From assembly GCF_000002985.6 (NCBI RefSeq), contig NC_003282.8, positions 6,882,001 through 6,946,000 on the forward strand: a DNA stretch of 64,000 nt, given 5' to 3'. The notes under the pieces are model-generated. The model saw nothing but the letters and a program-made list of their open reading frames with translations. It had not been told where the DNA came from and did not search any database. The translations under genes and the position numbers were made by a program. This DNA is from Caenorhabditis elegans (taxonomy: Eukaryota > Nematoda > Chromadorea > Rhabditida > Rhabditidae). Shown here piece after piece: positions 9,901 through 62,292 of this stretch. Within the stretch, counting starts at the first letter, position 1, and each line of letters opens with the position of its first letter.

Positions 9901-12900
9901 TCAAGGAAGACGAAACAAGACAAGAGTGTTCAGTTAAAACTTCCAAAACTAACAGAAGTTGAAAAGATCATTTATTTCACGACTGTGGAGGAGAGGCAGT
10001 ACAAGGATGAAAAGGAAAGATTGAGAAATATTGTTGGTAAGTGGAATTGAAAGTGTAGTAGCTTGAATGAAGATTTTTTGTTTCAAAAAATTCGGAAATA
10101 GCACCAAATAATCGAGGAAAAGTTAGAAATCCATTGAGACTAAATTCTCTGTTAGAGTTTCCTTGGAAATGAGAAGTTAGGCTCACTTCTAAACTAATTA
10201 GCATCTTCAAACTCTGCATATTGCATCTGATTGGTTTAAATATGGGCGGAGCGTATTGCTAATTAGGCGCAGCTCTTATTTTTAAGGTATTTCAAACATT
10301 GAATTTAGCCAACAAAAAATCCAAAAAATTAAGAAATACTGTTTCAAATATTAGATTCTTAAAATTTGTTTTGCGATTTTTTTGGTGTCTTATGGGAGAA
10401 CTTACCTTATAAACAATTTTGTATGTTTTGAAGCAAAATCCTCTTTCACGCTACGCGACCTTAAAATTGTGATGTAAAAACACATAAACCTCTTAATATT
10501 TTCAGAAAGAGCTATCGGAAATGCAGACAATTCGGATCTCCTTTCCGATCTTCAATGTCGTGAAAAAGTGCTCCAAGAGCTGAGATTACTCAGACAAATA
10601 ATTCTACTTGGCCAGAGGAAAACAGAATCTGATAAGGTTTCATGTGTTCTTGCACCAGAAACTGTCATTTTCAAATTGATTAAAAATAAGAAAACGACAA
10701 TTAAAGCGAATTTCAGAGAGTATTTGAGTTATAGCCTTGGTTGGTTGAAGAATTAGGTTCTAATCAATTTACGATTTCTTATAGGTGTTGCTGGTGTACA
10801 AATATTGATGGATATGCCACAAACTGCTATTGAAACATATTCAAGTGCATTGATCAACTATGACGAACTGATTTTAGCTGAAAGAAATCATCTTCCCGAG
10901 ATTAAGAACGATTCGTCTCGTGATGATTCTCCGTGCTTGTTAGAAGAAGATGAAGACGACGACTTTGATGGAGAAGATGATGGATCTGCTGAGAAAAAGA
11001 AGAAACCAAATAAGCTTAACGAATTAAATGGATTCCTAGGAGGAATTCATCAAATATCAAAGAAATATATGAAATCAAAGAATTTAAACCTGGACCCAAC
11101 TTCCCGAAAATCCGAACGAAATGGTCGGGTTAACGAGAGAGAAATCGAAGAGATAACCAGACCAAAAGATGCAAAAAGATCTAGGCTTGACGTTGAAGAG
11201 GAGGATGAAATGGAAACTAACGAAGAAAAATCAAACACACCTTGTAGTTCAACTCAAGATGAAGGAAATTTGGAATATGTTAAAGGACAGAAACATATCC
11301 AAAAACTTGCTTTCGCCGCAATTGAACCCATCACAATTGATACAACACAAGAAGTTCATTTGATTCTGAATATGTATAACATTCAATTGTCGATGGGGTT
11401 TCCACAAGCCGATCGGGTCTCATTGGATCGTCTGCAACAAATTTTCGTTCGATATTTCCAATTGGAGGTGAGTTGAGAGTTATTGTGCGCTAGAAGTAAA
11501 TATTCAATGAACCTAATGTTAAAGGAAGTAGTGCCAGTTGGTCAAATTGCTAAAACCCACTGGTGCCAAAATGGCCAAATAGCATAGTGAAACTTTTCAA
11601 ATAATGTCTGCAAATGTTTTTTGACCGCGAAAAGTGATAATTTATGATTTACTATGATATTTGGCCATTTTGACACCATATAAGTGGTTTTTAAACCATT
11701 TTCCCCACTGGCTGTGCTGAAGCTTCAAATGCAACTTTTCAATTATCAAATTATTTACCACTAATAAAATCAATTTCAGTTGCGAGCCATTGAATTCATT
11801 GCTAACGATCTACCAATTTTCAGTCAAATGTGGACAAAAGATAAAAGAAATTTGGTAGGTGTTTCTGTTCTATTTCTAAAATCATTTATTTTAAATATTT
11901 GTAGATGTACCAAGTTAGTGAGTTCTTTGGAATGATGGGTATACGATGTTCAGCGATAAGAGACACGGGAGCATTATATGAGAATGGAAAGATTATTCGT
12001 GATACTGTAAAGAAACATCATTTTCCACATCTTCCTTTTGTCGCTCTGTATGACACGAACAAATTGACACCTATAGGTCGTGTACACAGAGAGAAGACGT
12101 GTATGGGTAGATGCAATAATATTGTAATGGAGTGTGAAGTTTTCAATGGACAACCATGCTTGAGTCTACCAGATGTTATGAGCAAAACGTTGGATCATTT
12201 CAAAAAGATCGATGAGAAAAGAAAAGAACTCGATCAAAAAGCGAACAAACTCGTTGAGTTTATCATGAAAATGGTTGGTTTTCTATTGAAAATAAACCCA
12301 TCTTTTGAAAAATATTAGTTTTAAAAAAGTATTTTTGTTGTTGATTTCCTTGACAGATCAAGTGACAGACAATTGTTTTTGTCATTGGTGATCATCACTG
12401 AAGGTCACGTTGTTTGTTTGTTTGTCTCTAACAATTATTTCTATGTACTTGAGCAATATAAAAAATGCATTTTTTCAAATATTAAAACGGAAAAAGTTAA
12501 TTCGCTAACACACGAAGAAGCAACAAAAACTGATTTTTAAGTTTGAACATTATTGAATATTTTGACCAACATTGCAATCTTTATATAATTTCGAGTATGA
12601 TTTTTCGGTAAAATTCAAGTATTTATGAATTTTTCGCGCACTATTTTTTGTTGAAAAAAGAGGAAAACTAAAAGTCTACAGTCCTTGAAATGAACTTTAA
12701 AAAAAAATCCTACCAAATTACTGAAAAAATTGAGCTCTACTCAACCCTTAAATGTGAAAAGACTCTTCATTGTAAGTCCAATTTCAGGCAAATCCAAACA
12801 TGTTGATTACTGTGTTTTCTGAAAATACGGATGACCGAAGCTCAAGTAACAGAACTCCCGAAATTCAGAAAATGCTCAACGTATTGCTATGCGATCACAA

Positions 12901-15528: not shown

Positions 15529-17449
15529 ATCCACGGTTTTTTATTCTTGTTAACATGTTTATTGTTCCCCCGACATTTCCACATTTTTTTGCTTTAACTA
15601 ATTAATTTTTTGACACAAACCAAAGTTTCACCCTGTTACCTCGTTTCAATTGTTGCCACTAAATCGCTCTCTCCAGCCCCACAGATCATCATTTCACTGC
15701 ATTCAAATTTGACTGATCTGCTTTACCAAAAATCGATCTTTCAATGAAATGTTTTTCAACAAAAAAAAAGAACAACTAATTTATTTTCGCTTTTTCACAC
15801 TTTTCAGGTTTGCATTCTAATACATTACGCTGTAATGTGTTCGCATTCTAATTTGATATAAATTTTTAAAATTTCAAAGAAAAACTAAAAACTTGAAAAA
15901 GCGTCAGTATGTTTCAAGGTTTTAATCCAGATTTTTGTGAGGAGATCAGGTCAGTTAACATGAAATAACATTGCTGATACTCAGATTAGTCTGAAAAAAT
16001 ATATTACGCTGTAATGTGTTTATTTGATTTGATTTATTTTTCCAACATTAAGAGCCAAAAGGTAATACATTAAAAGGTAGTACAATTTAAGGTTTAATGA
16101 GAAAATAAAATTTATAAAACGAGACAAACCCAGCAAGAGTTCATCTCGAGTGTGGGAAATGGGTAAGGTAAGAATTAGAAAACAGAAAACAAGAAGAATA
16201 GAGAATGAAGAATTATAAAGAAAAGAGAATGGACTCGAGATCACATAGTTTCAATACCGGGGAATGTGAAGATCGAGAAAGTGAGAAAATTGGAAAGGAG
16301 AGAGGAAAACCGGGACGTTTTTGAAAAGATTATTCCAAATGGGAACTGATTGGGCGAAAAAGTGAGCGGTGCAACTGTCCTTTCTAACGAGAATCATAGG
16401 GTGCCTATTAGAGCTAGCAAATGGGACAAATTGATTAAGACTAGGGAAGTGGGATGATCCAGTGAGGAATCTATAGAGTAGTTTCATTTGAGCTTTGACA
16501 GGAGAGAGACCATTACAGATCGTCTCCTATAGAGGGCTGCCGGCAGGGGGGCGTTGTGGACCTGTGGGAAGAAGGGAAGAAGTGGGGAGACGACCGCACG
16601 GGCTGTATGTAAATGGGTACCTGGCCGTAATCTCAAAAACGAGCACAGTAAAGTATATTTTTAGTTAATTTCCTGAAAGAAAACAGTAAAAAAGATTTTT
16701 TAGTGCAATTAAACAAATCTTTGGATATAGTTTTATTTAGAAACTTTTCATTTTACCAAGATTTTTTGATTTAGTACTGAATTTCATTGATTTCTATTAA
16801 GTTCTTCGAATAATTTAAAATGCCTTAAGTACAGGCTCTGTGAGTAGTTATGTTAAGTAATTTAATTCGACACATTTGAACAAATTCGGACAGAAACAAC
16901 TTTTTTGCTCAATTTTCTCAAATAGAATTTCGAAAAAAAAATTGAAAAAATTGAATTTGAATTTTGATGAAACCTTTTTGAAATCAGTTAATTGGTATGT
17001 TTCCCATATACCAAACCCATTCAAAATCTACGATTGTTATTGAGAATTTGCAAAAATTGAAGCATTTTCAGTTCATACAGTAGTTATAATATGAAAACTG
17101 TTACATCTCAAAGAAAAAACATTTGTTTGAAAAAAATATCAAAAACCTTTTTAATTTTATTTTCAGAAAAAAAATTAAATTTCCAATCAAATTCCTGTAG
17201 CTAATCAGGCTCTAAAGTTTCGTCAGTCTTGACCAGAGGTGCCCTTTTACAGACCGTGGTCCGTAATTGTGCATGAGAGGCCGCTGTAGAGACAGCCGCA
17301 CGCTGTTGTAATAGAAGAAACGGCGGAACTTATGTTTTGATACCTTGAGAATTTGGAAATTTCTACGGATTTTCAAAACGTTTTCAAAACTATCGGAAAT
17401 CACCAAAAAAACTTTCAAAAAATGTTGAAATCTATTTAGTTTGGGGATT
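15529..17449. other. Intergenic stretch after the SHPRH-like gene
   Basis: Apart from the LINE fragment, there is no gene. The 19-mer-like sequence ATTACGCTGTAATGTGTT occurs twice in direct orientation (about 15824 and 16002), the second copy abutting the LINE 3' tail. The segment 15660-15820 has a second diverged copy at 18230-18360. The rest (16650-17450) is AT-rich and featureless to me. Confidence 0.5.
16020..16640 (-). mobile_element. 5'-truncated LINE fragment (reverse-transcriptase C-terminus)
   Basis: Reading the minus strand, frames contain ALYRRRSVMVSLLSK, then after a shift LLYRFLTGSSHFP, and FFAQSVPIWNNLFKNVP. This order resembles the C-terminal tail of nematode non-LTR reverse transcriptases (LYK.LHG ... 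FF..R....WN.LP). The 3' end runs to a TTGGAAAAATAAATCAAATC tail near 16020, typical of worm LINE 3' ends. There is at least one frameshift and no 5' part, so it is a dead fragment. Superfamily is an inference from residue pattern. Confidence 0.5.
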
Positions 17450-18360: not shown

Positions 18361-21300
18361 TTTGACAGGTCTTCTTAATTTGGAATCCTATAGCACCGAC
18401 TGTAAAAATAATGGAAAGAGCACCAATTGATATAAAAAGGAATTCTTCTTCATCTGTAAATGAGAAATTTTTATATTTTCAGGCTCATGGCCTATTATGG
18501 AGACACAAAATGCCCCTGTTCATATCAATGTGGGAACGCGCTCCATGGTCAATTGAAAACGCTACGCCCCCGAACCACGGGTCTCGTTAGGTGTTTGGCG
18601 GCAAAGTCGGAAATTCAAACAATTTCACCTATCGAGACTGTAAGAGGCAGATTTTTTTCAATTGACTGTGGAGCGCGTTTCCACGGCGATTTCAAATAGG
18701 GGCCCTATTATATACCTATTAATTCTGCATAAAAGTAATACGGAGATTCCTGTTCTGTAGTTGTCGTAGTGGTTACAGTTGAAGTTATAGTAACCGGAAT
18801 ACTCGTTGAACTGACTGGTGGGGGTACTGTAGTTGTAGAAACACTTGGATCACGAATATCCATACAAGCCGCATATCTAGCACTCCGGCAACTATACACT
18901 GGAATTGACAACTGAAACAGAACAATAACTATGAAAACTTAACGAGAATTTTGGAAACTTACAGATCGCGATCGCGTGTAAAGACAATTCACAAATCCAT
19001 CGGTTCGATTCTCAGGGAAGAAGTAAAAATCAGTTTTCGAACAGTTTCCTCTATACATAAAAAGTTCTTTATAACTTAAAAATTTATAAGAAAACCATCA
19101 AACCTTGTGAAATAAGCATCTAATAGTTGACTTTCATAAAATTTTCTGAAGTACACCCTTCCTGTCGGTTTTCCAATTGGAGCTTCAAATGTTTTATTTA
19201 TTCCAAGTCTTTGGGGAGAACTGATGCTCAACAGTTGATCGTTGGTGAATCTGAACATTGAAATCGGGATAATTATTTGATATATTATATGTTTTGATTT
19301 ACGAGAAGGAAATATTAGCGTTTTCAAAGTTTATTTGCACAGTGGTGGAGTCCACCACTGCAAATTAGAGGTGGCTATAGGTCGACCTAGGTCGACCTGC
19401 GACCTAGAGGGTTAGGTCGCATCGCGACCTGCGACCTTGCGACCTGGGTCGCTTTGCGACCTGCGACCTAGCGACCTGGGTCGCTTTGCGACCTGCGACC
19501 TAGCGACCTAGGTCGCATTGCGACCTGAATTACCGACATTTTGTTCTCTTTCGGTTTTGATTCACTTGAGTTGTTAAAATCCGTATAACTCGAAAACTAA
19601 AGATTGCAGAATATGTATATTCCACTAACATTTTCTCTATTAAGATTTTATAAGTTTATGCGTTGTTTCTAAAATTTCATTTTCCACTTTTCAAATTAAA
19701 AACGTAGAAAAAAGCACAGAGCAAAGCATTGATTTCTACAAATTCTACAATTCTACAAAAAAAAAATTGAAATTTAGAAAGTTAAAACATTTCGGGGGGA
19801 ACGAAACCCATAAGTACCATTGTTTTCAAGTTGAAACAATTTTAGTCGGCAACAAATCCGGCGGATGTCGGCTGTTCTAACTTTTTTCGACAAGGTGTGT
19901 TATGGATAAGAAATCGAAAACAATGTAAAATAAATGATTTGTAGCAATTTGTTAGTATACATATTCTGCAATCTTATGTAGTTTTCGAGTTATACAGATT
20001 TTAACAACTCAAGTGAATCAAAACCGAAAGTGCACAAAATGTCAGTACTTCAGGTCGCAATGCGACCCAGGTCGCTAGGTCGCAGGTCGCTAGGTCGCAG
20101 GTCGCAATGCGACCTAAATGAAAACAGCGACCTAGCGACCTAGGTCGCACTCTTGCCACCCCTACAATAAAATGTGAATATTCAATGTTCTCCACCTGGT
20201 GGAGAACATTGAATATTCACATTTTATTGCTAGTTTTTTTTTTGAAAACGTTGAGAAGGATGCTGGAAACCTTTAGAAACTAATTAAAAACTTAAGAAAA
20301 TATTGGCCTAAAATATACAAACTCGGTGAATGTCAAAGGGAAAACTACCGTACCCTATAGTGTCCTAGCATTAAAGTACACTCAGTAGGAGATTTTATAA
20401 TCACTACAATGCTGCTATAATGGGCAAAAATCATAGTAAAACTTTTAAAACCCTTTGATTCGTTTCATATTTACAGTTTAAAAAGTAAGAATTTCGAAGT
20501 TTTCACATTTTTGCATTACATTTTAATTGTTTGAATTTTAATATTTCAAGAGTTATATTTTCACAAAGTTGAATTTTTTAATATATTGGCGCAATGTTAA
20601 GAATAAGTTTCTCAAAAAAAAATATTAGTGAGATATCATTTAGCTATACTTTCATGAGAGTATTTATACAAAAGCCCAACTGGTGTTACTCTATCTTATA
20701 GAAAAACCAAATATCAAATCTACCAGATAAAAAAGACGGAAGTACGATAAGTTACGGTTGGTAACGTTACATGGAAAAGTAATATTTTCGAACTTACTCT
20801 AATTTCAAGTCTATTGTGGGATCTCCTGATTGATCTATGTCAAGCCTGTGCGGCTTTACTAGATGCTAAAAAATATCGACCAATTAAAACAATCATACTG
20901 CACACTACTTACTTTAGATCGTTCCCATTTTTCTGTTATTGTAAGTTCACCATATCCAACATTAACTTTATGAGCTTTTGTATGGTTTATAGCTTTACTT
21001 TTATCAACGTATCTATTGTAAATTGATAATTCTAAAAAAACTTGTTGCTCTGATCCTTTTTCCATATCTTCGATAATTGCATTAGATAGTTGGAAGACTT
21101 CCATTCTGAAAGCTATTAACATATTTCCATTTTTTGAATGTAATTCCTACGTTTTATTTTCCATTTTCAGTTTCAAGTGCAATGTGTCTCCGAGATGAAC
21201 TGGTTGTGTCATAATCACACCATTTGGTATTTTGAGTTCTTCTAATTGATTATCTGATGAATTTTCAAAAACACACATTTTAGGACAAAAATCTGAATGA

Positions 21301-24635: not shown

Positions 24636-27600
24636 TTACTTCTTAGTTGATACAACAACCGGCTGATAATCTGGATTCTTCTTCAAAATAACCAATCCTT
24701 CAAGATGTGGAGTCACAGAGAGATCTGAAATATTTTAGTTAAAAATTAATTATCAAATGTTAGGATGGCATACATTCATCGTTCGCCAACTCGGCACGTT
24801 CACCATGGGCAAGCAAGACTGGCGTAGTATGAGTTTGGAATCCAGTGATTGTCTTTGGCTTTCCGGCTTGAGCAACAACGTCAACGGCTTGACCAACACG
24901 AACAGAAACGTTCAACTGTAAAATCACATTGGAGAGTTGAAACTTTTAAAAAAATTATACCTGTTTCAAGCTTCCAGGCTTCATTTCGTCTTCTACCAGT
25001 GTGGTAAGCATTCTTGGTTGCATTGCGAGCACCAACGTGTAGAGCAAGTAATGCTGACGGTTGTTGAGAATCTAAATTTGAAATAAATTATGGTAGAAAT
25101 ATCAATCTTGCACTAACCGTGTTATTGGCGTCGAGGAAAGAGAAGCAAATTGAAAGGAGAGAAGCCAAAGCACTTGGAGACAATAATTGCCTATCAGAAT
25201 GCCATGGGTTCAACGTCATTGTTCCTTTTCCGAGATGAGTAAGTCCTTGTGCAATTCTGACCAGCATTAGAGAAACTTGATCCTTGTAGTGATAAGAAGC
25301 CAGGTTTCGGAGCATAGCAACAAGACGAGCATTGTTTGTTCCTGCTCCAACAAGTCCCATCGCGAAAATAGCATTGTGAGCGGTATCAGCGTCAGAATCG
25401 TGAGAGAACTTGGACAGAGTTTCCAAAATGTTCAATTGAGGATTTGAGACGGAGAGAAGTGACAACGCCAAGGGAACAGCACGACGGATAACTGGTTCTC
25501 CATATCTGATGAGATGTCCGAACATGCGAAGAGCCATCTGAGATCCGATGTCATCTCCCATAGCAATCAGACCAATTCCGAGTACAGCAACCGCCTGTTG
25601 CGATGACAAGTCTGGCTTGGCAGGTGGTGCTGGAGTAGCGTCGGCGGCAGCAGTCTCTGGAGCTCCTGGTGTAGCAGCACTTGCGGCTCCTGGAAGGTCG
25701 CGTCTCGGAGCAGCTGGGGCAACGGCGGGTGTTCCAGTTGGGGCTGGAGTGCCAGCGACGTTGACATTTCCAGGTTGCGCAGCAGGACGAGCAGGTGTAG
25801 CAGCAGCTGGGGCTGGTCCACGCGGTCCACGAGAAGCGGCAGTTTTCTTCTCAGCTGCTGGCGTCTCGTAGTGTTCAGAGCAGAGATGGAGCAATTTCTG
25901 GATTTTCAAAACATTTCCAGTTCCTGCGTATGCACAAACTTCAACGAGCGTAGAAACCTGAAATTGTATTCATTATGATATGAACAAGGGAATAGCCAAA
26001 ACTCGAGGTGATCTAGAACAAATAATACTTACCATCGCTCCAAATGGATCAGGAAGTGAACGGAGACTTTCGACAAACACATCACTCTTGTCCTGAGTTT
26101 GCAAGAAGATCAATGCAATTCCCAATGCAAGGAAACGCATATTTGGATCTGTGAGCTCAGTTTCGCTTTTATCCATTAGAGCTTGAAGCATCTCCATCGC
26201 AGCTTCCGCATCAGCAGTTCCAACAAGAATGAGGCCAAGAGAAAGTCCAGCAAGTCCTTTAACTTCAGGAATAGCCGATGGCTTTTGATCAGAAAGAACT
26301 TTCTTGAGCTCGAAAATAACACCGCGTTCCTCATTCTTTGTAACGGTTTCTCTTTTGGAATTAGCGTAGGCAAGTCCAAGTCCAAGAATTGATCCTACTC
26401 TCATAATTGACCGATCAGATTGAACATGATCAAGGAGAAGTGCGGAAGCAGGGTCACAAGCATCTTGAATTCCAGAGGAAATAATACCAATAGCCAAAAG
26501 GGTTCCAGCCTTGATATAATCGTCATTGATATACAAGAATCTGTCGCATTGTGCCAGGCCGGTATCGATATCCCATCTCCAGATAAGACCCTGTGAGGCG
26601 GCTGCAGTAAGCATTCCATATTCCTTGTTCTTGTAGAACCATCTGGAGGCTTCCTCTGTTTCAGCCATCATTTTATCAACTCCGAATCCACAGTTCACGA
26701 ATCCATTCACCAACGCAGCGGCGAGATTCATGCGAGTAGAGTCTGGCTGAGCAGAGTTTCCGAATGGCCGGGAATGTTCCAAATGAGATTTGTAAATTCC
26801 TTCTGGAGTTTTAGGCTCCATAATGTCGAGCTCACGAGCCAAGGAGTGGAAGTATTCATAGAGATGAGCATTGGAATTCAGTTCGGCAAGAGCATCCGAA
26901 TCTGCAGATCCCTCGTAGTCAAGGAAAATCTGATGGCGACCGAGCAAGATAGCCATTTGCTTTCGAAGCAATCTGAAAACTTTTCTTTAGGAAAGTAAGA
27001 GACGTTATATTTAACTTACGGGTCAGATGCCTTCGCAAATATTTGATGAACCTGTGGAATATCGTTGACCATGATAGCACATCTAACAGCTTCAAGATAC
27101 CGGTTGAATTTCAAATAGAGTTGGAGAGCAGTGCGAATAAGAATAATGTTATCCGGGTCTGGAGTCAATGGGGCACATGAAAGAAGATAAAGGCACACAC
27201 GTTGGTGATCAACTTCTTGGACATAAGAGATCAGCAAATCAATACGCTCAATTTCGATGAGCAAATCGCACGCTTCAACTTCTGCGTTGTGTTTCATGTG
27301 ATGGCTGACAATATCCTGAGTCAACTTAAGGAGTTCAGCTTTTCTCGCATCCGAAGTGCCTTCCTTCTTCCACTCCTCTGACATTTCCATCGCCAAATGA
27401 CGAACGTATTCATGTCCCCAATCCCCGATCGGCTCGTGTGATCCAAGAATACGATAGTTGATCGTGTCGGTTCGCTCATCTGATGTCATTGCGAGCACTG
27501 AAATGATATCTGCGCAAAGTTTCTTAACGTCAGGCGCCACGATCGATGTGAAAATCTCCTTCATTTTATTGTAATGCGGACGCATAAACTTGAGAGGTTT

Positions 27601-35280: not shown

Positions 35281-37398
<2,118 letters not shown>

Positions 37399-39092: not shown

Positions 39093-39805
39093 ACGGAGAT
39101 GGCATTCAAGCCATTATGTTTAATTAATTCAGTCAAACTGTTCACAAAGTTTTGAAGAAATGTGTGAAAGATCAGAATAACGTGGTTTCAGAAAAATGGA
39201 TATCTTTTAAAGTTGCGATACTGTATATTATCTATGAGTACTATTATACATTTAAAGTTTCCTTTATACTGTTAAGATTACTAATTTTAACTTACAAGAC
39301 ATGTATGCGTTTAAATTTTGAATAAAAAATCATGAAAACTGCAAATTAAATATATAATTATTTGGATGTAACTTGTTTTTAAATTTTGGAGCCCTCAGAA
39401 TTTTCCAGATGCTGAAGGTACTCTGTGGTATTTCTAAAATGTTTCAGCACTTATAAAGGTTAATTTTGGTAATTTTTATGTTAATTGTTTTTCGTCTCTG
39501 GTGCAATCTGTAGATGACACTGGTTTTGCGTCAACTGTATCAAATATTTCTGTAAAAGTTCAATAGAATCTAAATTGGCAATGTCAACTGATTACTTAAC
39601 CTAGACTATTGACATAATGTAATCACTAAATGATTGATAACTTGATGTTGATCTATTCTACATCATAACTGATAACGCTCATCTTCTGATAATTTAAATT
39701 AAAAAATAAAAATGCTCGAGAACTATGCTCATGAACCTTTTGAAATGGTTAGCTCACCGGAAGCTCAAATGTCGTCAGACAGAGAACGACAACATTTCAC
39801 AGTGA

Positions 39806-39813
39806 TATAAAAG
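39806..39813 (+). promoter_or_regulatory. TATA box of the Pro-rich repeat gene
   Basis: TATAAAAG lies 42 bp upstream of the ATG at 39855, a spacing that fits a short untrimmed leader. Confidence 0.45.
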
Positions 39814-39854
39814 AAAAAGGAAAAACTGAAATAGTATCACTCATTGAATTCACA

Positions 39855-40991
39855 ATGAGAACTTTCCAATTAACACTACTCTTCACCGCTTTGGCGGTAA
39901 CTTCTCTGGCGGCTCCGCGTTTCTCAGTTGGTGAGACTGCTTCTCGTCGTCCACCACCACCACCGAAGGGAACTGGAACTCCACCACCACCACCAACTGG
40001 AGAACCACAGGATCTTTCTGGAGAAGGTAATGCTTCTCGTCGTCCACCACCACCACCGAAGGGAACTGGAACCCCACCACCACCACCAACTGGAGAACCA
40101 CAGGATCTTTCTGCAGAAGGTAATGCTTCTCGTCGTCCACCACCGCCACCGAAGGAACTGGAACCCCACCACCACCACCAACTGGAGAACCACAGGATCT
40201 TTCTACAGAAGGTAATGCTTCTCGTCGTCCACCACCACCACCGAAGGGAACTGGAACCCCACCACCACCACCAACTGGAGAACCACAGGATCTTTCTGGA
40301 GAAGGTAATGCTTCTCGTCGTCCACCACCACCACCGAAGGGAACTGGAAGCCCACCACCACCACCAACTGGAGAACCACAGGATCTTTCTGGAGAAGGTA
40401 ATGCTTCTCGTCGTCCACCACCACCACCGAAGGGAACTGGAAGCCCACCACCACCACCAACTGGAGAACCACAGGATCTTTCTACAGAAGGTAATGCTTC
40501 TCGTCGTCCACCACCGCCACCGAAGGGAACTGGAACCCCACCACCACCACCAACTGGAGAACCACAGGATCTTTCTGCAGAAGGTTATGCTTCTCGTCGT
40601 CCACCACCACCACCGAAGGGAACTGGAAGCCCAACACCACCACCAACTGGAGAACCACAGGATCTTTCTGGAGAAGGTAATGCTTCTCGTCGTCCACCAC
40701 CACCACCGAAGGGAACTGGAAGCCCACCACCACCACCAACTGGAGAACCACAGGATCTTTCTGGAGAAGGTAATGCTTCTCGTCGTCCACCACCACCACC
40801 GAAGGGAACTGGAACCCCACCACCACCAACTGGAGAGCCAGAGAAAATATAGACAACTGTGTAAAAATGTTGAAATTTCCCTTGTACCAATAAAACTTGT
40901 TGTATTAGAAATTCTGAATACTGTTGTGCCTTCGGCAACGTCTCTACCAAGATTTAACATATTGTCGAGCAACAAATATCTTGAGCCTTAA
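39855..40991 (+). CDS. Secreted Pro-rich tandem-repeat protein, reading frame broken in repeat 3
   Basis: Signal peptide MRTFQLTLLFTALAVTSLA is followed by ten tandem 93-bp units (starts near 39938, 40030, 40123, 40215, then every 93 bp to 40774). Each codes for 31 residues of the form ASRRPPPPPKGTG, xPPPPPTGEPQDLS, xEGN. No family is recognised; the role is unknown, probably extracellular. In unit 3 the run GAAGGGAAC reads GAAGGAAC (about 40152-40155), a one-base loss that shifts the frame. As written, the frame then reads His-rich repeats (HHHHQLENHRIFL) to a stop at 40989-40991 (378 residues). The frame used by units 1-2 would, with one more base, run through all ten units to GEPEKI and a stop at 40850-40852. 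Sequencing or assembly error, a real allele, or programmed use of two frames are all possible. Confidence 0.65.
   Translation: MRTFQLTLLFTALAVTSLAAPRFSVGETASRRPPPPPKGTGTPPPPPTGEPQDLSGEGNASRRPPPPPKGTGTPPPPPTGEPQDLSAEGNASRRPPPPPKELEPHHHHQLENHRIFLQKVMLLVVHHHHRRELEPHHHHQLENHRIFLEKVMLLVVHHHHRRELEAHHHHQLENHRIFLEKVMLLVVHHHHRRELEAHHHHQLENHRIFLQKVMLLVVHHRHRRELEPHHHHQLENHRIFLQKVMLLVVHHHHRRELEAQHHHQLENHRIFLEKVMLLVVHHHHRRELEAHHHHQLENHRIFLEKVMLLVVHHHHRRELEPHHHQLESQRKYRQLCKNVEISLVPIKLVVLEILNTVVPSATSLPRFNILSSNKYLEP
39938..40846 (+). repeat. Ten-unit 93-bp minisatellite (coding)
   Basis: Units begin GCTTCTCGTCGTCCACC and end with GAAGGTAAT (GAAGGTTAT once). Variation among units is mainly ACT/ACC/AGC before the second Pro run and GGA/GCA/ACA in the S-x-E position. 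The last unit has one CCA fewer. Because the period is a multiple of three and stop-free in several frames, long spurious frames exist on both strands. Confidence 0.9.
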
Positions 40992-46828: not shown

Positions 46829-46896
46829 CTGTTTCAACATCAACATTTATGATCCTAGGTTTGGTTTTCAAATAATGATTATTTCTCCGAAATTCT
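46829..46896 (+). ncRNA. Candidate 21U-RNA locus (CTGTTTCA + YRNT)
   Basis: CTGTTTCA at 46829-46836, then TAAT with T at 46876; predicted 21-mer 46876-46896. Intergenic. Confidence 0.38.
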
Positions 46897-46930
46897 CAAA
46901 ATCTTTGTCGAAATGTTTACATGAAAATTT

Positions 46931-46938
46931 TGAAACAG
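46931..46938 (-). promoter_or_regulatory. CTGTTTCA octamer without a good YRNT
   Basis: Minus-strand CTGTTTCA. No YRNT with T at 38-42 nt downstream, so this is a weaker 21U-RNA candidate. Confidence 0.2.
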
Positions 46939-47087: not shown

Positions 47088-49118
47088 TCAAACACTGTCT
47101 GGGCGTTCATTTGGACGAGGAGTTGTTGAGAAAGGATCACGCATCTGAAATTATGGAATTTTCAATAAAATATGCATTATTTCAAATTTTAATTTTTTCG
47201 TTCAAAGAGTTTATTACAAGCGTTGTCAATTAAAAACTCACCAAAGTGACATTTTCCGCCTTCGAAGTCGCAGAATATGCATACACGTTGGTGGCTGCTG
47301 TACCGGTAGTTGTGACGTAACACGGGCGGAATTGAAGAATCTGAAATAATAATGTTTAATGGAAAAATTAAAATTGTCTCTTCTAAACATTTCATTAAAT
47401 TAATTTTGAAGATTGTTTTTTGAAATGTAACTCACCATTGATTGTAAAGCATTTCTAAATGATTCATTGACCAGTGCATATACTATTGGATTAACACACG
47501 TTGAAGAGATTCCGACCAAATGACAGAAGATGTACCTAAAAATTTATTAAAAATAATTTTACATAACTTTTCCTGTTTCTTAAAACTTACATATTTTGTG
47601 AATAGTTAATAATCTCGAGACCATTCAAAACATGATAAATATTCATTGGAGCCCAACACACGGCATATGTGAGTACTAACAAAAAGAGCAACAAAAGAGC
47701 TCTTCGATTTCTATTTTGCATTTGCATTCTTCTTGTTGTATCCACTGTACGTGATACTTTTGATCGTTTTTGAATTGTTGACCCGATTTGGAAATATGCA
47801 TATGCCAAGGCAGCAAGTGGTAGAATATATTGAATACCAAGTACTACAAATGTGTACGTGGTTTTTGAGACAATTGCATTATCCCAGGCTTCTTGCATCT
47901 CTGCACATATTTCTGGCACTTGACGGTTGCAATAGGTTAGCTGAAGAAAATCAATATTTGTGAACATTTTCTTACTGTTTAGAATTATTTTATATTATAA
48001 CAGTTCAAACTTGTTCATTGATAGGTTTGGATTCAAAACATTAAGAATTTAAATTAAGATCCCTATGAAATTTGAAAGGATGCTAACGAGTAAAAAAGTT
48101 AAAAAAAGCAAGTTAGCTGAAGAAAATCAACATTTTAAATTATTTTCTTACTGTTTCAATAAAAGTGTTAAGTAAAGTGTTCAGCGAATGTTTTATTGGA
48201 ACATTTTTTTCATGTTTCAAGAACGATTTAAATCAACGGTGCGAACTTGCTGATTGATATAATTAAAACAAAAAAATAAAAAAGGAGTGGAATTTTGAAA
48301 ATGAATAATTTAAATAATACTTTAATATTAACTTGATAATAAGACACATACCATTTTGGGAGTTGCTCTATCACTCCATGGATCAAATGGAGCCAACTTT
48401 GAGCTTACTGCCAATGCATATGGAAGAGCAACTATGATCGAAATGATCCATACGACACCATAGCATAAAAGTGGTGCAGTTGCTGCTAATCTCCATCGAA
48501 CTGGACAAAGTGTTAGAAGAACACGATCCATTGCAATGAATGCAAGAGTAAGTGATGAAACAAATGTGTTCACTGCTTGAACACCAGCGAGCTGAAATTG
48601 AAAAATCAATAACTTGAAAACCTCAACTGAAGTTTTCTAAATGTTTCTTTTCACACTTTACAAACCTTTAACGGTTTCGAAAAATTCTAATAAATTTCAA
48701 ATTATATTTGCTATTGATAAATATAACTATGAAAATACTTACAAACTTGCACGACCAATCTCCGAATGGCCAAAATAAATTTAAACTCGTATAGAGAGTG
48801 ACTGGCGCTGTGACCACACACAGAATCAAATCGGAAAATGCCAAATTCACAATGAAACTGTTTCTCAAGTTTCGAAGATTTGCAGTTCTGACAAATGCGA
48901 GGAGAACGATAAAGTTGGCAAGAGCTCCGAATGAGCACACCAACCCATACATTGGCACTATTGGGGATCCATCAAAATTTATTTTGTAGAGACTGTTCTG
49001 GAAAAAATTCAATTGGAGATGCAAAACAGGAAAACTCAAATACCTGATAATTTTGCATTTCTGCAAACCAATCGCAGTGAATTTCTGTCCATTGTCCCGT
49101 AGAGTTTGGCGGTTGCAT
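47088..49118 (-). CDS. Rhodopsin-class GPCR, neuropeptide-receptor type
   Basis: Seven minus-strand exons: 49118-49044, 48997-48743, 48591-48352, 47940-47591, 47535-47436, 47340-47242 and 47144-47088, 391 residues. Seven helices are visible: TM1 MYGLVCSFGALANFIVLLAF; TM2 with NSFIVNLAFSDLIL; TM3 ending in MDRVLLTLCPVRW (DRV in place of DRY); TM4 with CYGVVWIISIIVALPYAL; TM5 with YTFVVLGIQYILPLAALAY; TM6 with LLVLTYAVCWAPMNIYHVL; TM7 with NPIVYALVNESFRNAL. Extracellular Cys in WSCKF and YCNRQVPEIC allow the conserved disulphide. N-terminal NST is a glycosylation sequon. The layout is that of worm NPY/tachykinin-like peptide receptors; the ligand is unknown. A TTTCAG acceptor lies one base before this ATG, so an upstream exon is likely (candidate at 55632-55713 adds MTVHKT in frame). 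I believe this is T22D1.12. Confidence 0.88.
48151..48217 (+). ncRNA. Candidate 21U-RNA locus (CTGTTTCA + YRNT)
   Basis: CTGTTTCA at 48151-48158, TATT with T at 48197; predicted 21-mer 48197-48217. Lies antisense in the GPCR intron between exons 3 and 4. Confidence 0.35.
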
Positions 49119-51189
49119 ACTGAAATTAAAAGTTTATAGTTTCAGAAATTTAAAAATATAAAAATAGATTTTAAAAAAGACTTAAAAAAAATTCAATTGA
49201 GTATTTTATTTCACTGCGTAATAAAATCTTCTACGGTTCTAGACTCTAGAACCTAGAGTTTAACATAAAACCTTGTAACAGTAAAAAAATTTAAAACGTA
49301 CAAACTATGTTTTAATAGTATGAAATTTAAAAACAAAATGAAATCCATGGTTATCACAACATAAACTGCCAAAGGGGGTCAAATAGGAAATGGAAAACTA
49401 CAATAGGATTCAGAGAGACATTCTAGCATAAGAAAAATCCCTTAAAAAATAAGAAAAAGGCAAAGCGAGCTATTTGCGAAAAAAAAAATCTAAAACGGCT
49501 AAGAGCTTCCTGAATAGGTAACATCAATAAGGAACTAATGCTGTGACATATTTACAGAAAGTACATAAAAATTGTCAAAACAGGAAAGGAAAAATACGAA
49601 CTTCTTTGAATAGAGAATAAATTGGTAAGAAGTTGTTTCTCTAACCTGTTCCAGAAATATCCTTGCACTATATTTAAGATGTTAATCTAATGCTCGAAAG
49701 TTCTCAAGGGCTCGCTTCTAGAAAAAGGCAACAAATTTTGCAAAAAAGTAAAAACAGAGTCTGGTGAAGAATTTGAAGAAAAACGTCCAAAGTTGATGAC
49801 GTGAACTAAAGTTTGACTGCTGCGAATGAGACACTGACTTTTAATTGGTTTAGCTCGTTTTTCCGTTTTTCTCTGAAATGGAAGTGGAACTTTTTAGTGT
49901 TTTTCATGTAGCCAACAACTAAAAGGAAATTATTTCATATATGTCCCCCCAAAAAACAAGAAACTATATGACAGAAGGGAAATGAGTTGAACGGACGAGA
50001 AGTAAAGAGATGGAAAGATTGGCACGGGAATTTGAGTCAAAAAAATGAGAGGCAAAGGATAGCTGAAAAAAAAAAACAAAAAGTGCTCTTACATGAGATA
50101 TCCGATGTCTTAATGCCCAGAACATATGATTTTATTTGATTTCAGCATAATTATTCTAGGAACTGTTTTAGAAAATCGTTTCCATTAACTCGAAAAACTC
50201 CAGAAGGCAAAAAATAGAGTAGGCACCGTATAGACACGATGCAGGATCAATAATGGCTGCCTATTGTGCATTTTGACAGTTGCAAAAACACACAAAAACT
50301 GTATATTGAATTTGTTAAACCCGGAAAATGCTTTATCGCCGTACCGCAAAGATTTTTTGTTTTGCCAAAATTTAGGAAGGCATGAGTCCTGGAAACGTGC
50401 CTGGCAACAATGAAAGCTTGATAAAAAATTTAATATTTTCAGATAACAAGTTTCACGTTAACGGAGAGTTAATTTGAAATTCGTATTCTCAAATTATATT
50501 GTCAATTTCTATAATAATATTTCCTTTTTGCAATCCTGCTTCAAAATCTGGATCTGAGAAGATCTGGTCAGACGAAAATCTGGTCTAACATACAAACAAA
50601 ACAAAAAAAAATTCCCCCGCTTCGGAGAAATATAGATTTTAAAACTGAGAAATCCAGCGCGAAACCACCAAATTCACATTTTCCGTTCAAAAATTCAAGA
50701 CCCGTTTCCGTGTATGCATTGAATATTAAATTGCGTCGAAAGTGCTAGGATGTAAAAAGGAAGATTTTGAACATAATCCGCTTGAATTTATGGTTTCAAA
50801 TAATACATTATTTTTTTGGTTTTTTGTATTTTTGAACTAAAAGTTCGTAATTCGAGATAACTTGTTTTTCGTGTACTTTGAGAGTTGGCAGGATCACTTT
50901 AAAAACAGTCACGCAGAGAGTTGTATACCTATAGATCCTAGATTGTCATCAAAATCAAACTGACATAAACAAAAGATCTTTGAATTCTAATATCTCGTTA
51001 ACGTAAATTTTCCCACGTCACAGTGAAAGCAATAAAAAACACTTCAAATTTTCACACTCTTTCCAGAAAATGATAGTTGACACTAAAGCTACATTAGACA
51101 TTCATAAGACATAAAATGCTAATTGGTTGTCCAAAAAAAAAAATTTAAAAAAAAAACGTCTAGGTCCGTTCAATGCAATGTCGGAAATC

Positions 51190-51515: not shown

Positions 51516-52130
51516 AATTTGAATGGAGGTCAGCTTCAAAAGTTCCAAAATCTGAGTGGTTTTGGATGAAGTCATGCATAACAGTTTAAAATTGAAATTC
51601 GAAAATCACATTAGGAAAAGAAAACTAAAGTGCTAAGTGAAAGCAATCTAAAATTCAAACGTATATGGATAGAATTTAAAATTGGACACTAAATTTTCAA
51701 ATCAAAAAACATAATTTGGTTTGCTGAGAATTGGAATGGTTAGGTTATTCTTCTTCTTCTTGGAAGCCCCCCACACACAGAAAAACCAAAAATTTTGTCA
51801 AAACAAAAAAAAAACAACAAAACAAGAGACTCCATTCACCAGAGTTTCTGGAACCTTTTAGGCAGTCATTTCAATTTCACGCTTCAATGTTGATCTGGTC
51901 GGTTCTGAATCAATTAGAATTGGGAAAAAAGAACGCGGAGATAGGATGGAAGGGGAGGAAAAATGAAAAAAAGTAAGAAAAAGGAAGAGAGAGAAAGTGA
52001 ATGAAATTTTAATGAAGAAATAGTCACAAGCAAGAAAGTTGTAAATGTTGAATACGTCAGGATCATGAAATTTGAACTTGAGTGCTACGAAGTTCAAAGG
52101 TTTATTATGCGCGTGAGTAAATTCAGTTTT

Positions 52131-52138
52131 TGAAACAG
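52131..52138 (-). promoter_or_regulatory. CTGTTTCA octamer without a good YRNT
   Basis: Minus-strand CTGTTTCA in the long gene-poor region; no YRNT at the expected distance. Confidence 0.2.
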
Positions 52139-55502: not shown

Positions 55503-55569
55503 AAAGTTGAAACAAAAACAGCATCGTTGTTCTGCAACGTTCCTTTGATTTGTACACAATTTGAAACAG
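55503..55569 (-). ncRNA. Candidate 21U-RNA locus (CTGTTTCA + YRNT)
   Basis: Minus-strand CTGTTTCA at 55569-55562, CGAT with T at 55523; predicted 21-mer 55523-55503. Confidence 0.4.
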
Positions 55570-55631
55570 TTTTATTTTAGTTTATGCTACTGTCTGAAAC
55601 TTTCTGTCAGAAACATTTAAAAACAACTTAC

Positions 55632-55713: not shown

Positions 55714-56909
55714 CTGTAAAAACAATTAAGATCAGTTTTTAAAGAGTGGTAAATACAAGTAGTATAGAGATAAGGGAGTACAAAAAGTGTACAGATTGAA
55801 AAATGTGATTGAAAGTTTTTTGTAACAACATATCAAGCCGCTTAAAAGGTGACTAATTTTTTCTGCCAAATTCAATAACGTGTTCCAAAAAAACATAGAA
55901 CAGCGCAAAAGTCGTAAAAGAATTAAGTAGACAATGAATGTGAAAAAAAATGTCAAGAGACTCGTGGAAACAGCTCCGGAATGAATATAGTAGTGGAATG
56001 AGGAAAGAATCGTGGATATATACTAGAGGAAGAAGGAAAATGTCGTTGCATAATAAATACACCTTTCGGCACATTTGTTTTTACAAGTAATACGACTTTT
56101 AAAGATGTTTTTTCTTTGCTGGAAATAGTCACTGCCAGGTGAGTTAGCAAGAAAAAGGGTTCAATATTTTCCTTTATTTTTTTTGTCCTGAAACGTTCGA
56201 ATATCATAGTTTTAAAATTAGAGAATTATTTAAATTCTTTAAACTATAGCCAAAAAGTGGTGAAACTCAGTTGTCCTATTATAATGTTGGAAAATTACAA
56301 AAAAAGGTAATTATTTGGTAATTTTGGAGTATTATAAATATTTTTAAAACGAATCCTCACGGGCGGTACTCCAGCTTTATTCAATCAAAAACATCAAAAT
56401 AGTTGTAGAAGTTTCAATCTTTTTTTATTGAAAAAAGTTTGAAATTCAAATATTTAATGATGGAAATTAGTTGATTGTTTTAGAAAAAAAATTCCAAGAA
56501 AACTGTCAGGCATCTTAAACTTTCCCAACAAAACAATTATAGTTTTATGTAATTTCTAGCATTCTTAAGAACTCACAACAAATCAAGAAAATTTTTTATT
56601 TCTCACCTAGTTTCAGAAAGTTTATTTTTGCAGAATATTGCAAGAAGTATTCAAAGAATTACTTCTAAGAAGGTCCATTTCTGAACAAATTGAGTAACGT
56701 CTCATTGCTTTTTGGTGGGCGGACGATGGGTTCTAATGTAATTACTGGGTTCACATCGTTTGCAATGAGCACCAGTCGTTAAAATCTTTTCCACTAAAGC
56801 TATCGAAAAAAAGTGAAGCCGGAACACGAGATTTTGGAAAAAAATAATGGATTTAGATGACCAATGGGAAAATACGAATTATGAGGTTTTGATGAGTTGA
56901 GGAGATTCA

Positions 56910-56975
56910 GGACACAAAATCAAATCAACATTGTTCGATAAATATTTTTGTGTTTATAAAAATAAGATGAAACAG
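56910..56975 (-). ncRNA. Candidate 21U-RNA locus (CTGTTTCA + YRNT)
   Basis: Minus-strand CTGTTTCA at 56975-56968, CAAT with T at 56930; predicted 21-mer 56930-56910. Confidence 0.4.
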
Positions 56976-57689
56976 TACATTTTTTTATTTTCTCAGCTTT
57001 AAAAGTGAATACAAAACTATCGATGGGCTAGAAGAGGTTCATTTCAGCACTCCGTTATTCGTTGCAAATTTGTAAATAAAAGAAGTTTGAATAGAATTTC
57101 AAAGTATTTTGGCAACTCTGAATCTTAAATCTCAAACATGCGTTCTTTGAAAATAATAAGCTGTTCATCTTCGGAACCAAACTAAATTATATTTTCAGGC
57201 TTGGCAATTAGTGTTTTCAAATTGAAAAAAAATAGAGGACGATTTTAAATTCAATTAACAATAATAATAAAATGTTATAAACAGGAATTGCACAGTAGAT
57301 TCTCAAACAAAATGAGATATTCTTGATCAAGAACAAATTTGTAATATGATCACCGCGAACATTTTAAGTGCGTTTTTTTTTGTTCAATGGTTAGAATGTA
57401 ATTATATATTCTTTTTTTCATGAGCATGTTCAAAAAACAAAAGTGAGCGAAATTCCGTATAATTAGATATATGATAGGCGAGAAAGTTGACCGATCATCA
57501 TGGTTAGAAAAAATCAAAAAAATTCCTTAATTTCAAATTTTTGAAAGAAATGCTAGTTGAAATTTAATTAGGTACGAACTTATCTTTCCAACTTTTGATT
57601 TTTTGTTGAATTTTCATTTTGATATTTAACCTAGTACAAGTGTTTCAAAGTATTTGTGCAACTAGCGCTGACTTACGCCTAAATAATTG

Positions 57690-58155
57690 AATACCGTATT
57701 TCCTCTATTAGTAAGGCATGCAAAACTAATTTTCGGACACCTAATTTGATGCAAAACTAATAGAGGGTGCAAAACTAATTTTCGAACAGGTTTTTTCTCA
57801 CGTTTTCCATTAAGTTATGGCATAATATCATCAATTACAGTAACAACTTATGAACCAAAATTGACGAATTTTACGACTGATACGCAAAAATTGTACGAGT
57901 TGTACTCATATTTTGCCAGTTTTGACTTTTTATACCAAGTCTGTAAAAGTTTTCCTAATTTTTAGAACGGTTTTATAATGCAAATTTTGAATTCCTAAAA
58001 ATAGGGAACAAATGAAAGGGTGCAAAACTATTAGAGGTGCAAAACTAATAGAGGGTGCAAAACTAATTTTCGATTAGTGATTTTAGATGCAAAACTAATG
58101 GCGGTGCAAAACTATTATAATAGAGGTGCCTAACTAATAGAGGAAATACGGTATA
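57690..58155. repeat. ATACCGTATTTCCTCTATTAGT palindromic element with internal GCAAAACTAAT repeats
   Basis: Left end AATACCGTATTTCCTCTATT and right end AATAGAGGAAATACGGTAT are inverted. The interior has six or more GGTGCAAAACTAAT / GCAAAACTAATTTTCG units. Flanks are AT-rich. No gene inside. Confidence 0.75.
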
Positions 58156-58491
58156 CATAATTCAAAAGTTCAAAAAAATGAGTTCAAGAAAATCAGATCT
58201 GGTATACTTTCCAAATTTCATCTGGATTAATAAAATGAATCATTTTATTTTCAGACACACACTCCTTCATTCATCTTTTGCAGACTTAAATAAGCTTTCA
58301 GTTGATCAGAAAAAATGCGACCAGTGATCTTCTGTGGTTTCCGATTGGTTCACTAAGCTAACCTATTCGATTAAAATAAATGAAAATTTAAAAGGAGATG
58401 GAGGGTAAGGGACCATAAATTGAAATGAAACAACAAATATTACGAATGAGTAAATATAATATACCACAACAATAAAAACATATTTTTAGAT

Positions 58492-58557
58492 TTCATATAT
58501 AGCCAATTGAGACTGAAAACTTCAGTCACAAAATGTTTTACCAATCTTTTGAAACAG
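58492..58557 (-). ncRNA. Candidate 21U-RNA locus (CTGTTTCA + YRNT)
   Basis: Minus-strand CTGTTTCA at 58557-58550, CAGT with T at 58512; predicted 21-mer 58512-58492. Confidence 0.4.
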
Positions 58558-59711
58558 TAAAAAAATTGAATATGAAAAACAACCCACAATAGATTATCTA
58601 ACGCTTATAATGGATATGAGTATGTAGATAATTGAGTTTTATGTGATAAATACAAGAAAACGAGAAAATTTTTTTAATTTTCAAAAAAAAAACAGCTGAA
58701 CTTGCATTGGAGTTAAATTGGTTTAGGAATGAATTTTTAGAAAAAAAACAAAAACAATTTTCTAACGGTGTGAGATTTGTTGTTACTTTGCTCAAAAATG
58801 TATTAAAGTGTTGTGACGAGACCGGTGATTTTTTGCCTGTAGCCAAAAATTGCAAAAATTGCAGAATGTCAAAAATATTTGAAAGCCGGAATATATAATT
58901 TTCCATTGGTTTTAACATGTTGCAAAAAAAAGGTTTATTATCCTGAAAAACTGAAATTTTAATCTTCAAAAAATTTGTTTAAGCCGGTGCTTTTTGAGTG
59001 CAAAACGCTCAAAAGCTACCTGATATCTTTACCGCCAATCATACGGACTCATAAAAAATGAAGATATTTTTTAGAAGAAATAAGTCTTCAAGTCTTCAAG
59101 ATTTGGCTCATAAACCTCCCTTCAGAAGATTGACATTGTGACTGACAAGTTTTCTCTCTGAATGTCACTTGAAACTTGAGAATCTCTACCCTTTTTATCT
59201 CATTTTCTTCTTACTTGAAACTTTCGACAAAACAAAAAAAAAGTGTATCCTTGTTTTTTACTTCTGCTTTGAACATTTCTATGGAGGTCTCACTGACTTC
59301 AAAACACACTTTTTCGAGGAAATGATGGACTCCTGGGACTTCCTGTTGCAGATATTGAATGAACAAATGAAAAAAAGAGAAGAATTGTGAAAAAAAGAAT
59401 GAGATGATATGGAGATGGAAAGCCGTAAAAAAGAGAAAATAGATACTTCAAGTAGCCATTTTGGATTGAGTAGGCGGGAGATTTCAGAAGGTCCAAAACA
59501 AAAACAACAATGCTTTTAAAGATTTTTCTACTGGAATATTAATATCCGTTTTTAAAATTCCCAACTCTTGCCAAAATTCATCTGAATATTCTTTCTTGAC
59601 CAACCAGCGCAGCCCGACGCTACTGATTGGTTTTACAGTGGGCATGGCTAAACAGTGATTGGTGTCCCGTTTTAGTTTATTAGGTGGGTCTAGACGGGAG
59701 CAAACTGAAAG

Positions 59712-59792
59712 ATACCGTATTTCCTCTATTAGTCTTGCACCCCTACGGGTCAAATAGTCTTGCATGTAAGACTGATAGAGGAAATACGGTAA
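59712..59792. repeat. Minimal copy of the CTCTATTAGT palindrome
   Basis: GATACCGTATTTCCTCTATT at the left is opposed by GATAGAGGAAATACGGTAAC at the right with a 40-bp centre containing AGTCTTGCA twice. Same termini as 57690-58155 but without the GCAAAACTAAT array. Confidence 0.75.
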
Positions 59793-61768
59793 CGGAAAAA
59801 GAACAAAGTACAAATTCCAGATTCGTAAATTAATTTTTTTAATGAGAAAATCTAGTAAAGTTCTCTATGAAAACGTCACCATTTTTCTTTTTTTATAACG
59901 TTGAACACTGAACATTTAGGAGAAAGAAACAAAAAAATATTTTTTGAAACAATGTAACTACTTTTGAGGAATTGTTGAAACAAGCGAAGTTGGTTCACAC
60001 AATCAGAAAAAGTGAAAAAAAAACTTTCAAATAGGAAGGGAACTTTTTTGGATTTCAAAAATGCTTTTGGATTTTTATAAATTAGAAAAGTAATAGGTAA
60101 ATAAAAATATGGTAATCTTTTTTTCATAATATGGTTACCTACGAATCTTTAGATGAATTCACAGAATTCTCAATTACAGAATCTTTCAACAATACATGGC
60201 TCATGATTTTTAAATAATATGTTTTTTGGCCAATTCGTTCAAAAAACAGTTTGGCAAATCCAAAAAAATGGGAATCTTGTTCGGGGAAATAGAAGGCCTC
60301 ATAAAATAAAATAAAAATTATCATCAACACCCTAAAACCCTAACAGAAACAGAAAATAAATGTATACCGCGAAGCCCAAAGGGAGAAAAAATGATGAAAA
60401 AATAAGCATTCATGGAGCAGAAAAGTGCATCCCAATTTGCTGAAGTAAGAAAAGTGGACGAAAGTTCAATCATCAAATGATTACGGGAAAAATGGGTCTG
60501 AACACTTTGTAAGTGCTATTCAATTTTCAATTTTCTAACACTGAATAAGCACTTAGTGGTGTTCATGGAAATTATTTGCAAATCCATTAGCAGAATAGTT
60601 CAAGCTTTTTGGTAAACACCAGTTTAGGAATTAGTTTTGAAACAATTTTTAACTTTCTAAACAAAACATACACAGAAGTTTTAAAAAATTAAAAATTGAA
60701 TTTTCAATAAATTAACTGAATTTTGTGTCATTTAGGGTTCCACCCAAAAGCATAAAATATTCGATGGACAGTCCATAAGTATGAAGACCCCACCATGGTA
60801 GAAGTAATTTAAAATTTTGTCGTAATCTTACAAATATTAATATAATACCAGGTGGTTTGTGAACTGCTCAAACTAGTTTTGAAAACAAGGAAGTGAGCAA
60901 AAATCAAAATTTTATTTATAGAGAATGATTTCTTGTTCTTTATTTTAGTTGCGTCTGAAACCGTGAAAATATACACAAGTTTTTTGAGTTTGAGAGTTTT
61001 TCTTTCAAAGCTGCAGTAGCCTAAAGTTTTTAGTAAAAGTTGAACATCAAAATTTTTCGACATGGATGTAATATTTTGACTTCGTGAAAAGTCAAAGACA
61101 TAACCAAAATATTATATTTTAAAGTTGAGCCCTTCGGGACCAGCCAGAAATTTAATAAACGGAAAATATTCTTCAATTTTTTGCAACAGGAAATATAAAA
61201 GGAAAATTTTCGAAAAGAATTAATAAGAATTTAATATTCAGGAACAATATCCAAATTTCAGTTTATGGAATAATAAAAGTTTGTGATAACCTATTGTTGA
61301 ACGTAAAGAAAAAGAAATTTGAAAAATCAAATTTTCCATGAACCAGTCAACCTGAAAACAAACAATTTTACAGCTTGATAACCAGGAGAATTGAAATTAT
61401 AGTTTAAAATCTACTTTTTATCGTTAAATGCTACCGTAATCTTTTCTAAAATAATTTATTAAAATTATTTTTGTTTAAAGTTTCGAAGGGTTTAAGTAGT
61501 TCTCCAACAGGTGAAAATAAAATTAGAAATAGGTTCAAAGACCCGGAAACATTAAAATCTGAATACATCAGCTTTTGTAAAAAATAGAAATATTGAAAAG
61601 AGGAATTTTTTGCAAGAATCGTTTATTCTTTTGGTCTTAAAAAGCTTCACCACATCTATCAAAAAACTCTTTTCCGAATGTTTCATTGTCTTCAAGGCCT
61701 CCCTATTTTCCGCCTCCACTTATTCCATCAAAAATCTTAAAGTCAGTGACGTGGCAACAATTGAGGAG

Positions 61769-61785
61769 AGAGAGAGAGAGAGAAT
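61769..61785. repeat. Short (GA)n microsatellite
   Basis: Eight or so GA dinucleotides, followed by a purine-rich stretch. Confidence 0.7.
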
Positions 61786-62284
61786 AAGAAGGAATAATGT
61801 ATTGAAAAAGAGAAAGAAAAGAGAATTCGGAAGCTTCATTGGAGGTCTCAGCTGGTTTCAATGAATTTAAAATTTAAATTTGAAGAGAGATTTCATTGGA
61901 ATTTTTGTTGAAAATCTATCTGATTTCAGACATCAACTTTGTGTTAGTACTTTGTTTGTTTACACTTTTTCATGAGCTCATTTCGGGGCTTAAAGGATGT
62001 CCACATATCCGATTGAGAGAAGGGGAAAGGCACACGTTTCCCCCCGCGCAAATTGTCTAGCATGAATCAGATGTGGATACGAAGGATTTTTAGATCAGTA
62101 CGAGATTTTTTTGTTGTCAAAGGGATTTTGGCAGTACTGATATATTTTTAATAATAAGAACTAAATTCCAAGACAAAAATACTCCTTCAAGAGTCCTTCA
62201 AGTTCCGCGAGTTGAAAAATTTCAAAAAAAGAATACTAGGTTTTACTTACTTTTTAAACTTGTGAAATCTGAAAGTATAAATTT

Positions 62285-62292
62285 TGAAACAG
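62285..62292 (-). promoter_or_regulatory. CTGTTTCA octamer without a good YRNT
   Basis: Minus-strand CTGTTTCA; no YRNT with T at 38-42 nt downstream. Confidence 0.2.

Follow-up and report, generated by a model that had tools for sequence, protein, structure and literature searches.

The window (the whole stretch of DNA analysed: 64,000 nt of Caenorhabditis elegans chromosome IV, IV:6,882,001-6,946,000) spans, with a probability of about 0.9, the left edge of a sparse type I 21U-RNA (piRNA) sub-cluster inside the known small piRNA cluster. Starting at 46.8 kb, CTGTTTCA cores with extended flanks, often with a YRNT 38-40 nt downstream, ran through to the end of the window and continued over at least the next 20 kb. 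Type I 21U-RNA promoters were the best reading of these predicted sites, for which the species, the published coordinates of the cluster, the extended flanks and the YRNT spacing all point the same way, and the right-hand 17 kb very probably holds about seven to ten such predicted promoters. The preliminary description had proposed a scatter of 21U loci over 52 kb. Its right-hand portion, from 46.8 kb on, largely held up and its left-hand sites found no support; since support is limited to the former, the pattern reads as a sub-cluster edge and not as a 52-kb scatter.

Location in the chromosome IV clusters

The small piRNA cluster has been placed at chromosome IV 4.5-7 Mb and the big cluster at 13.5-17.2 Mb (PMC7884074). 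At IV:6.882-6.946 Mb the window lies inside the small cluster, close to its right end; it shares species and the published 4.5-7 Mb interval with the known type I 21U-RNA genes clustered on chromosome IV. The predicted window loci resembled those of the sampled big cluster in core, flanks and, where a YRNT was present, its spacing, and differed in being sparser than the mean, in lying at a sub-cluster edge and in the absence of YRNT at three good cores. Nine scoring sites occupied the right 19 kb of the window, compared with a sum of 232 in 200 kb of sampled big-cluster stretches. A YRNT start and PRG-1 loading would also be expected of type II 21U-RNAs. The predicted window loci are ordinary members of a cluster and a gene class already described, and not a novel type of system. 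They add one case that agrees with published descriptions of 21U sub-clusters broken up by active domains.

GTTTC density, for which a large contrast has been reported (PMC3597512), was useless here as a cluster marker: per kb it was 4.13 on the left, 3.63 on the right, 4.77 in the stretches used for training, 3.40 in the chromosome I stretch and 3.15 in the right flank.

Octamer counts

In total, 13 exact copies of CTGTTTCA were found on both strands of the 64-kb window. The ten octamers listed in the preliminary description were all correctly placed, and three more were present: 18920(-), 24961(+) and 26656(+). Its chance expectation of two to three was also low. Dinucleotide shuffles of the whole window (n = 100) gave about four (mean 4.04, SD 1.90, largest 11), and none of the 100 reached 13.

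Genome-wide there were 10,674 copies of CTGTTTCA in 100.29 Mb, or 6.8 per 64 kb, versus 2.7 per 64 kb for the reversed pattern, and for this reason shuffles understate the background in the C. elegans genome. The 3' splice-site consensus, the clusters themselves and perhaps an inverted-repeat family are the likely causes of the high genome mean. Among the first 100 genome octamers listed, at least six plus/minus pairs lay about 151-157 bases apart (C1, for example 1979907(+) with 1980063(-)); these pairs suggest an inverted-repeat family with CTGTTTCA near both ends, which would raise genome-wide counts.

Within the window the octamer excess was local and right-hand only. The right part (45-64 kb, all octamers from 46,829 on) contained eight, against a mean of 1.14 and a maximum of six in 300 1-kb block shuffles. 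The left part (1-45 kb) contained five against a mean of 2.97, and 18.7% of 300 shuffles reached five. Motif density thus exceeded that of shuffled sequence on the right and was at shuffle level on the left.

YRNT spacing and strand

All seven YRNT T positions given earlier (10386, 39044, 46876, 48197, 55523, 56930 and 58512) proved correct. A YRNT with its T at 38-41 nt accompanied seven of the 13 window octamers (binomial P = 0.026). On the right it was present at 38-40 nt in five of eight (P = 0.009), the octamers at 46938, 52138 and 62292 having none at 38-41 nt, and on the left in two of five (P = 0.38). Because a YRNT falls 38-41 nt away by chance at about 25% of places, octamer plus YRNT alone was a weak locus criterion and was set aside. 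In the big-cluster sample (13.5-17.1 Mb, 151 octamers with full flanks) YRNT was found at 38, 39 and 40 nt in 28, 50 and 32 cases. Elsewhere in the tested range of 20-69 nt, each spacing had 2 to 21; with only 15 of 151 at 41 nt, the peak is 38-40 nt and not 38-41 nt.

Octamers beyond 49 kb were all on the minus strand, as previously stated; the companion figure of five minus-strand octamers among seven from 48 kb on was a miscount, there being six, of which five were minus. Strand bias was not significant for these (5/6, P = 0.22), for the right-hand set (6/8, P = 0.29) or with the 20-kb right flank included (14/21, P = 0.19). Among nine sampled big-cluster stretches with at least eight octamers, strand bias reached P < 0.05 in one, and 21U loci have been described as having no prominent strand bias (PMC3597512).

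Promoter model

A two-class promoter model was built from 12 nt upstream, a core with at most one mismatch, 16 nt downstream and the YRNT spacing, and was fitted to 623 candidates. The training sample consisted of 20 stretches of 10 kb (200 kb) from chromosome IV 13.5-17.1 Mb, whose octamers were presumed to be promoters. A score of 11 was the cut-off, with 9 as the looser one. With half-trained models, 58 of 81 and 52 of 73 held-out exact big-cluster octamers reached 11, as did 0 of 10 exact chromosome I octamers. Of 59 candidates from chromosome I with at most one mismatch, one reached 11 in each half model; at the looser cut-off, none and two of the 10 exact chromosome I octamers passed in the two half models. 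This control from outside chromosome IV comprised 34 kb, mostly octamer-selected, and eight of its 10 exact octamers came from octamer-picked loci.

In the window, nine sites of the right 19 kb reached 11, seven of them with exact and two with variant cores, and no site of the left 45 kb did so; right and left block-shuffle means were 0.09 and 0.15, and none of 300 shuffles reached nine such sites on the right. Both half-trained models placed seven of the eight right octamers and none of the five left ones at 11 or above. A first model using exact octamers only agreed with the mismatch-allowing model in ranking the same eight right octamers above the same five left ones. When the octamer was kept and its flanks were shuffled, P was below 0.03 for seven of eight right octamers and for none of the five left ones (0.40, 0.85, 0.37, 0.22 and 0.67, in order). 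The left-hand variant 10078(+) scored 9.8, with 0.71 sites of at least 9 expected on the left by shuffling. Beyond the window, two 10-kb stretches to the right had four and seven sites of at least 11, and a 10-kb stretch to the left had none, with two of at least 9. A repeat search that used no motif recovered a four-copy family consisting of the motif and its flank (three exact cores, one variant).

These scores divided the seven starts put forward in the preliminary description. The promoter reading is well supported by flanks for 46876, 55523, 56930 and 58512 and is doubtful for 48197 (octamer 48151). It was unsupported for 10386 (octamer 10339) and 39044 (octamer 39092), where the sequence around the octamer scored no higher than it did with shuffled flanks (P = 0.40 and 0.67). 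Judged by their flanks, 46938, 52138 and 62292 deserve inclusion as predicted promoters though they have no YRNT.

That every octamer arose by chance or from the composition of AT-rich non-coding DNA is very improbable: the idea fits the counts and flank P values of the left 45 kb, where the look-alike motifs are chance, but it fails on the right, where the octamer excess, the composition-matched flank shuffles and the score counts of 300 block shuffles all run against it. Chance is refuted for the right-hand octamers taken together; an individual weak site (48151 or 60352, for example) may be a chance match.

Accidental matches at intron ends or in coding sequence account for some of the left-hand octamers. 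The octamer at 26656(+) lay inside the RPN1 coding ORF and was the only one of 17 sites within a coding segment by the codon-usage scan. The one at 24961(+) was at the edge of an exon whose translation matched proteasome subunit 2/RPN1 (best E = 1.1e-4), and 18920(-) looks by eye like an intron 3' end, ctgtttcag. This explanation is true for 26656 and probably for the other two, but can hardly extend to the right-hand set: an intron end CTGTTTCAG needs a G next, and the eight right-hand octamers are followed by seven A, one T and no G. None of the eight overlapped a coding segment in the codon-usage scan, which is insensitive: having missed both Pfam-recognised receptor ORFs and the short 24961 exon, it cannot prove the other sites or the sequence to the right of 49 kb non-coding. 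Because exons and intron ends also give rise to the octamer, a search by octamer plus YRNT is too loose in C. elegans, and flanks and domain context are needed to part likely loci from chance.

Predicted right-hand loci

The predicted loci of the right-hand part are given in Table 1 together with the neighboring genes.

Table 1. Predicted 21U-RNA loci and gene features of the window (positions in the window; flank P from flank shuffles with the octamer kept)
Feature	Position	Strand	Details	Score	Flank P
SNF2-type helicase, RPN1, ribophorin I, IMP dehydrogenase and TIP49/RuvB-like ORFs	up to about 37 kb		housekeeping block on left		
T22D1.2, glycosyltransferase family 92 and carboxylesterase ORFs	about 37-46 kb		last ORF ends at about 45 kb; without scoring sites		
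Predicted type I 21U locus	46829..46896	+	core 46829-46836; 21-mer 46876-46896; YRNT 40 nt	13.8	0.0085
Predicted locus facing the 46829 locus	46871..46938	-	core 46938-46931; possible 21-mer 46891-46871; no YRNT	14.1	0.006
Rhodopsin-type receptor gene	47587..49141	-	two ORFs, 47587-47994 and 48668-49141; Pfam 7tm_1; in first part of sub-cluster		
Doubtful locus	48151..48217	+	exact core; YRNT 39 nt; shuffle-like flanks	9.9	0.235
Possible locus	48212..48278	+	variant core ATGTTTCA; YRNT 39 nt	11.2	
Predicted locus	52071..52138	-	core 52138-52131; no YRNT at 38-41 nt	13.8	0.005
Predicted type I 21U locus	55503..55569	-	21-mer 55523-55503; YRNT 39 nt	15.6	0.001
Strongest predicted locus	56910..56975	-	21-mer 56930-56910; YRNT 38 nt	19.0	0 of 2000 shuffles reach score
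Predicted type I 21U locus	58492..58557	-	21-mer 58512-58492; YRNT 38 nt	15.4	0.002
Possible locus	59916..59983	-	variant core TTGTTTCA; YRNT 40 nt; 10.7 and 10.6 in half-trained models	11.0	
Possible weak locus	60285..60352	-	variant core CTGTTTCT; YRNT 40 nt; at least 9 in one of two half-trained models	10.1	
Predicted locus	62225..62292	-	core 62292-62285; no YRNT at 38-41 nt	11.3	0.028

The predicted 21-mers of the two facing loci, 46829(+) and 46938(-), share 16 nt in antisense orientation (46876-46896 on the plus strand, 46871-46891 on the minus strand); overlapping 21U-RNAs as such have been reported as common (PMC2718520). Six predicted 21-mers, five right-hand and one left-hand, had no match in the main texts of the papers searched, supplements being outside that search.

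The Ruby motif has been reported to be bound by USTC, with RNA polymerase II initiating 2 nt ahead of the mature 5' U and making short capped precursors (PMC6317315, PMC4015492, PMC11262695). Following this published work, USTC (PRDE-1, SNPC-4, TOFU-4 and TOFU-5) would bind each core in the germline, RNA polymerase II would begin transcription 2 nt before the T, and the resulting capped precursor, some 28 nt long, would be trimmed to a 21-nt 5'-U RNA that loads PRG-1. Cores beginning with C have been linked to male-germline expression (PMC3597512, PMC7884074).

The sites could alternatively be real Ruby motifs that are decayed or silent relics at the cluster fringe, giving no detectable 21U-RNA. 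Low density, the missing YRNT at three sites and poor flanks at one speak for relics, and about one quarter of Ruby motifs in regulated chromatin and more than 98% of those in active chromatin have been reported to lack detectable 21U-RNA (PMC6436959); several window sites nevertheless score as high as typical big-cluster sites, and this alternative was judged improbable. Promoters of other small RNAs of the SNAPc type (snRNA-like), sharing an ancestral motif, are extremely improbable. The motif of SNAPc-driven snRNA promoters is evolutionarily related to the Ruby motif (PMC6436959), but no Rfam family reached its gathering score in the window, which unlike such promoters has no known structured RNA family, and the YRNT spacing matches the 21U cluster. 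ARAGORN found nothing in the 64-kb window.

Two repeat features touched single sites. A 45-nt local duplication (47936-47980 and 48112-48156, 87% identical) lay beside a receptor-gene ORF; the 48151 octamer was at the end of the second copy, and the first copy diverged before the octamer was complete. At 57688-59791 there were several short inverted repeats with a common TACCGTATTTCCTCTATTAGT, together with TGCAAAACTAATAGAGG direct repeats, resembling a small palindromic transposon family, and the 58557 site sat between two of the inverted repeats.

Gene context and a possible domain border

Pfam matches were obtained for 10 of 20 ORFs scanned. Scoring sites were absent from the housekeeping block and began near the receptor gene, which, judging by position, is probably npr-12 (T22D1.12), a gene listed in a published table (PMC3527849); for one receptor ORF the best solved relatives (PDB) were chemokine and neuropeptide Y receptors. 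About 9.6 kb separated the last housekeeping ORF from the first scoring site, and the edge does not abut the housekeeping block.

In the published clusters, 95% of 21U loci overlap H3K27me3 domains, active domains yield only four of 9,634 cluster 21U sequences, and genes in cluster regions without 21U loci have high germline expression (PMC6436959). The arrangement of genes and predicted promoters in the window fits the published finding that 21U loci keep out of domains of active genes. More loosely, the edge of the predicted type I sub-cluster may mark where an active domain carrying housekeeping genes (RPN1, ribophorin I, IMP dehydrogenase and RuvB-like) gives way to a repressed domain containing the neuropeptide-receptor gene. 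A speculative and rather unlikely extension is that a natural border, somewhere within about 37-46.8 kb, divides an active gene domain from a piRNA domain and that the first two promoters past it, facing each other, give 21U-RNAs with a 16-nt antisense overlap. If true, the region would offer a compact setting for studying what bounds piRNA domains and whether promoters that face each other interfere.

The proline-repeat ORF at 39753-40991 coincided with T22D1.2, published at IV:6,921,878 (PMC12340121), which ties the window to reference coordinates on chromosome IV. The ORF carried a tandem array at 39938-40828 (93-nt unit, 9.6 copies), and proline-rich reading occurred in two different frames, in ORFs 39753-40991 and 40124-40852. 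Resequencing of T22D1.2 has been reported to give an extra base and two extra repeats (PMC12340121). Further tandem repeats, with CGACCT-type units, were found at 19393-19527 and 20068-20106.
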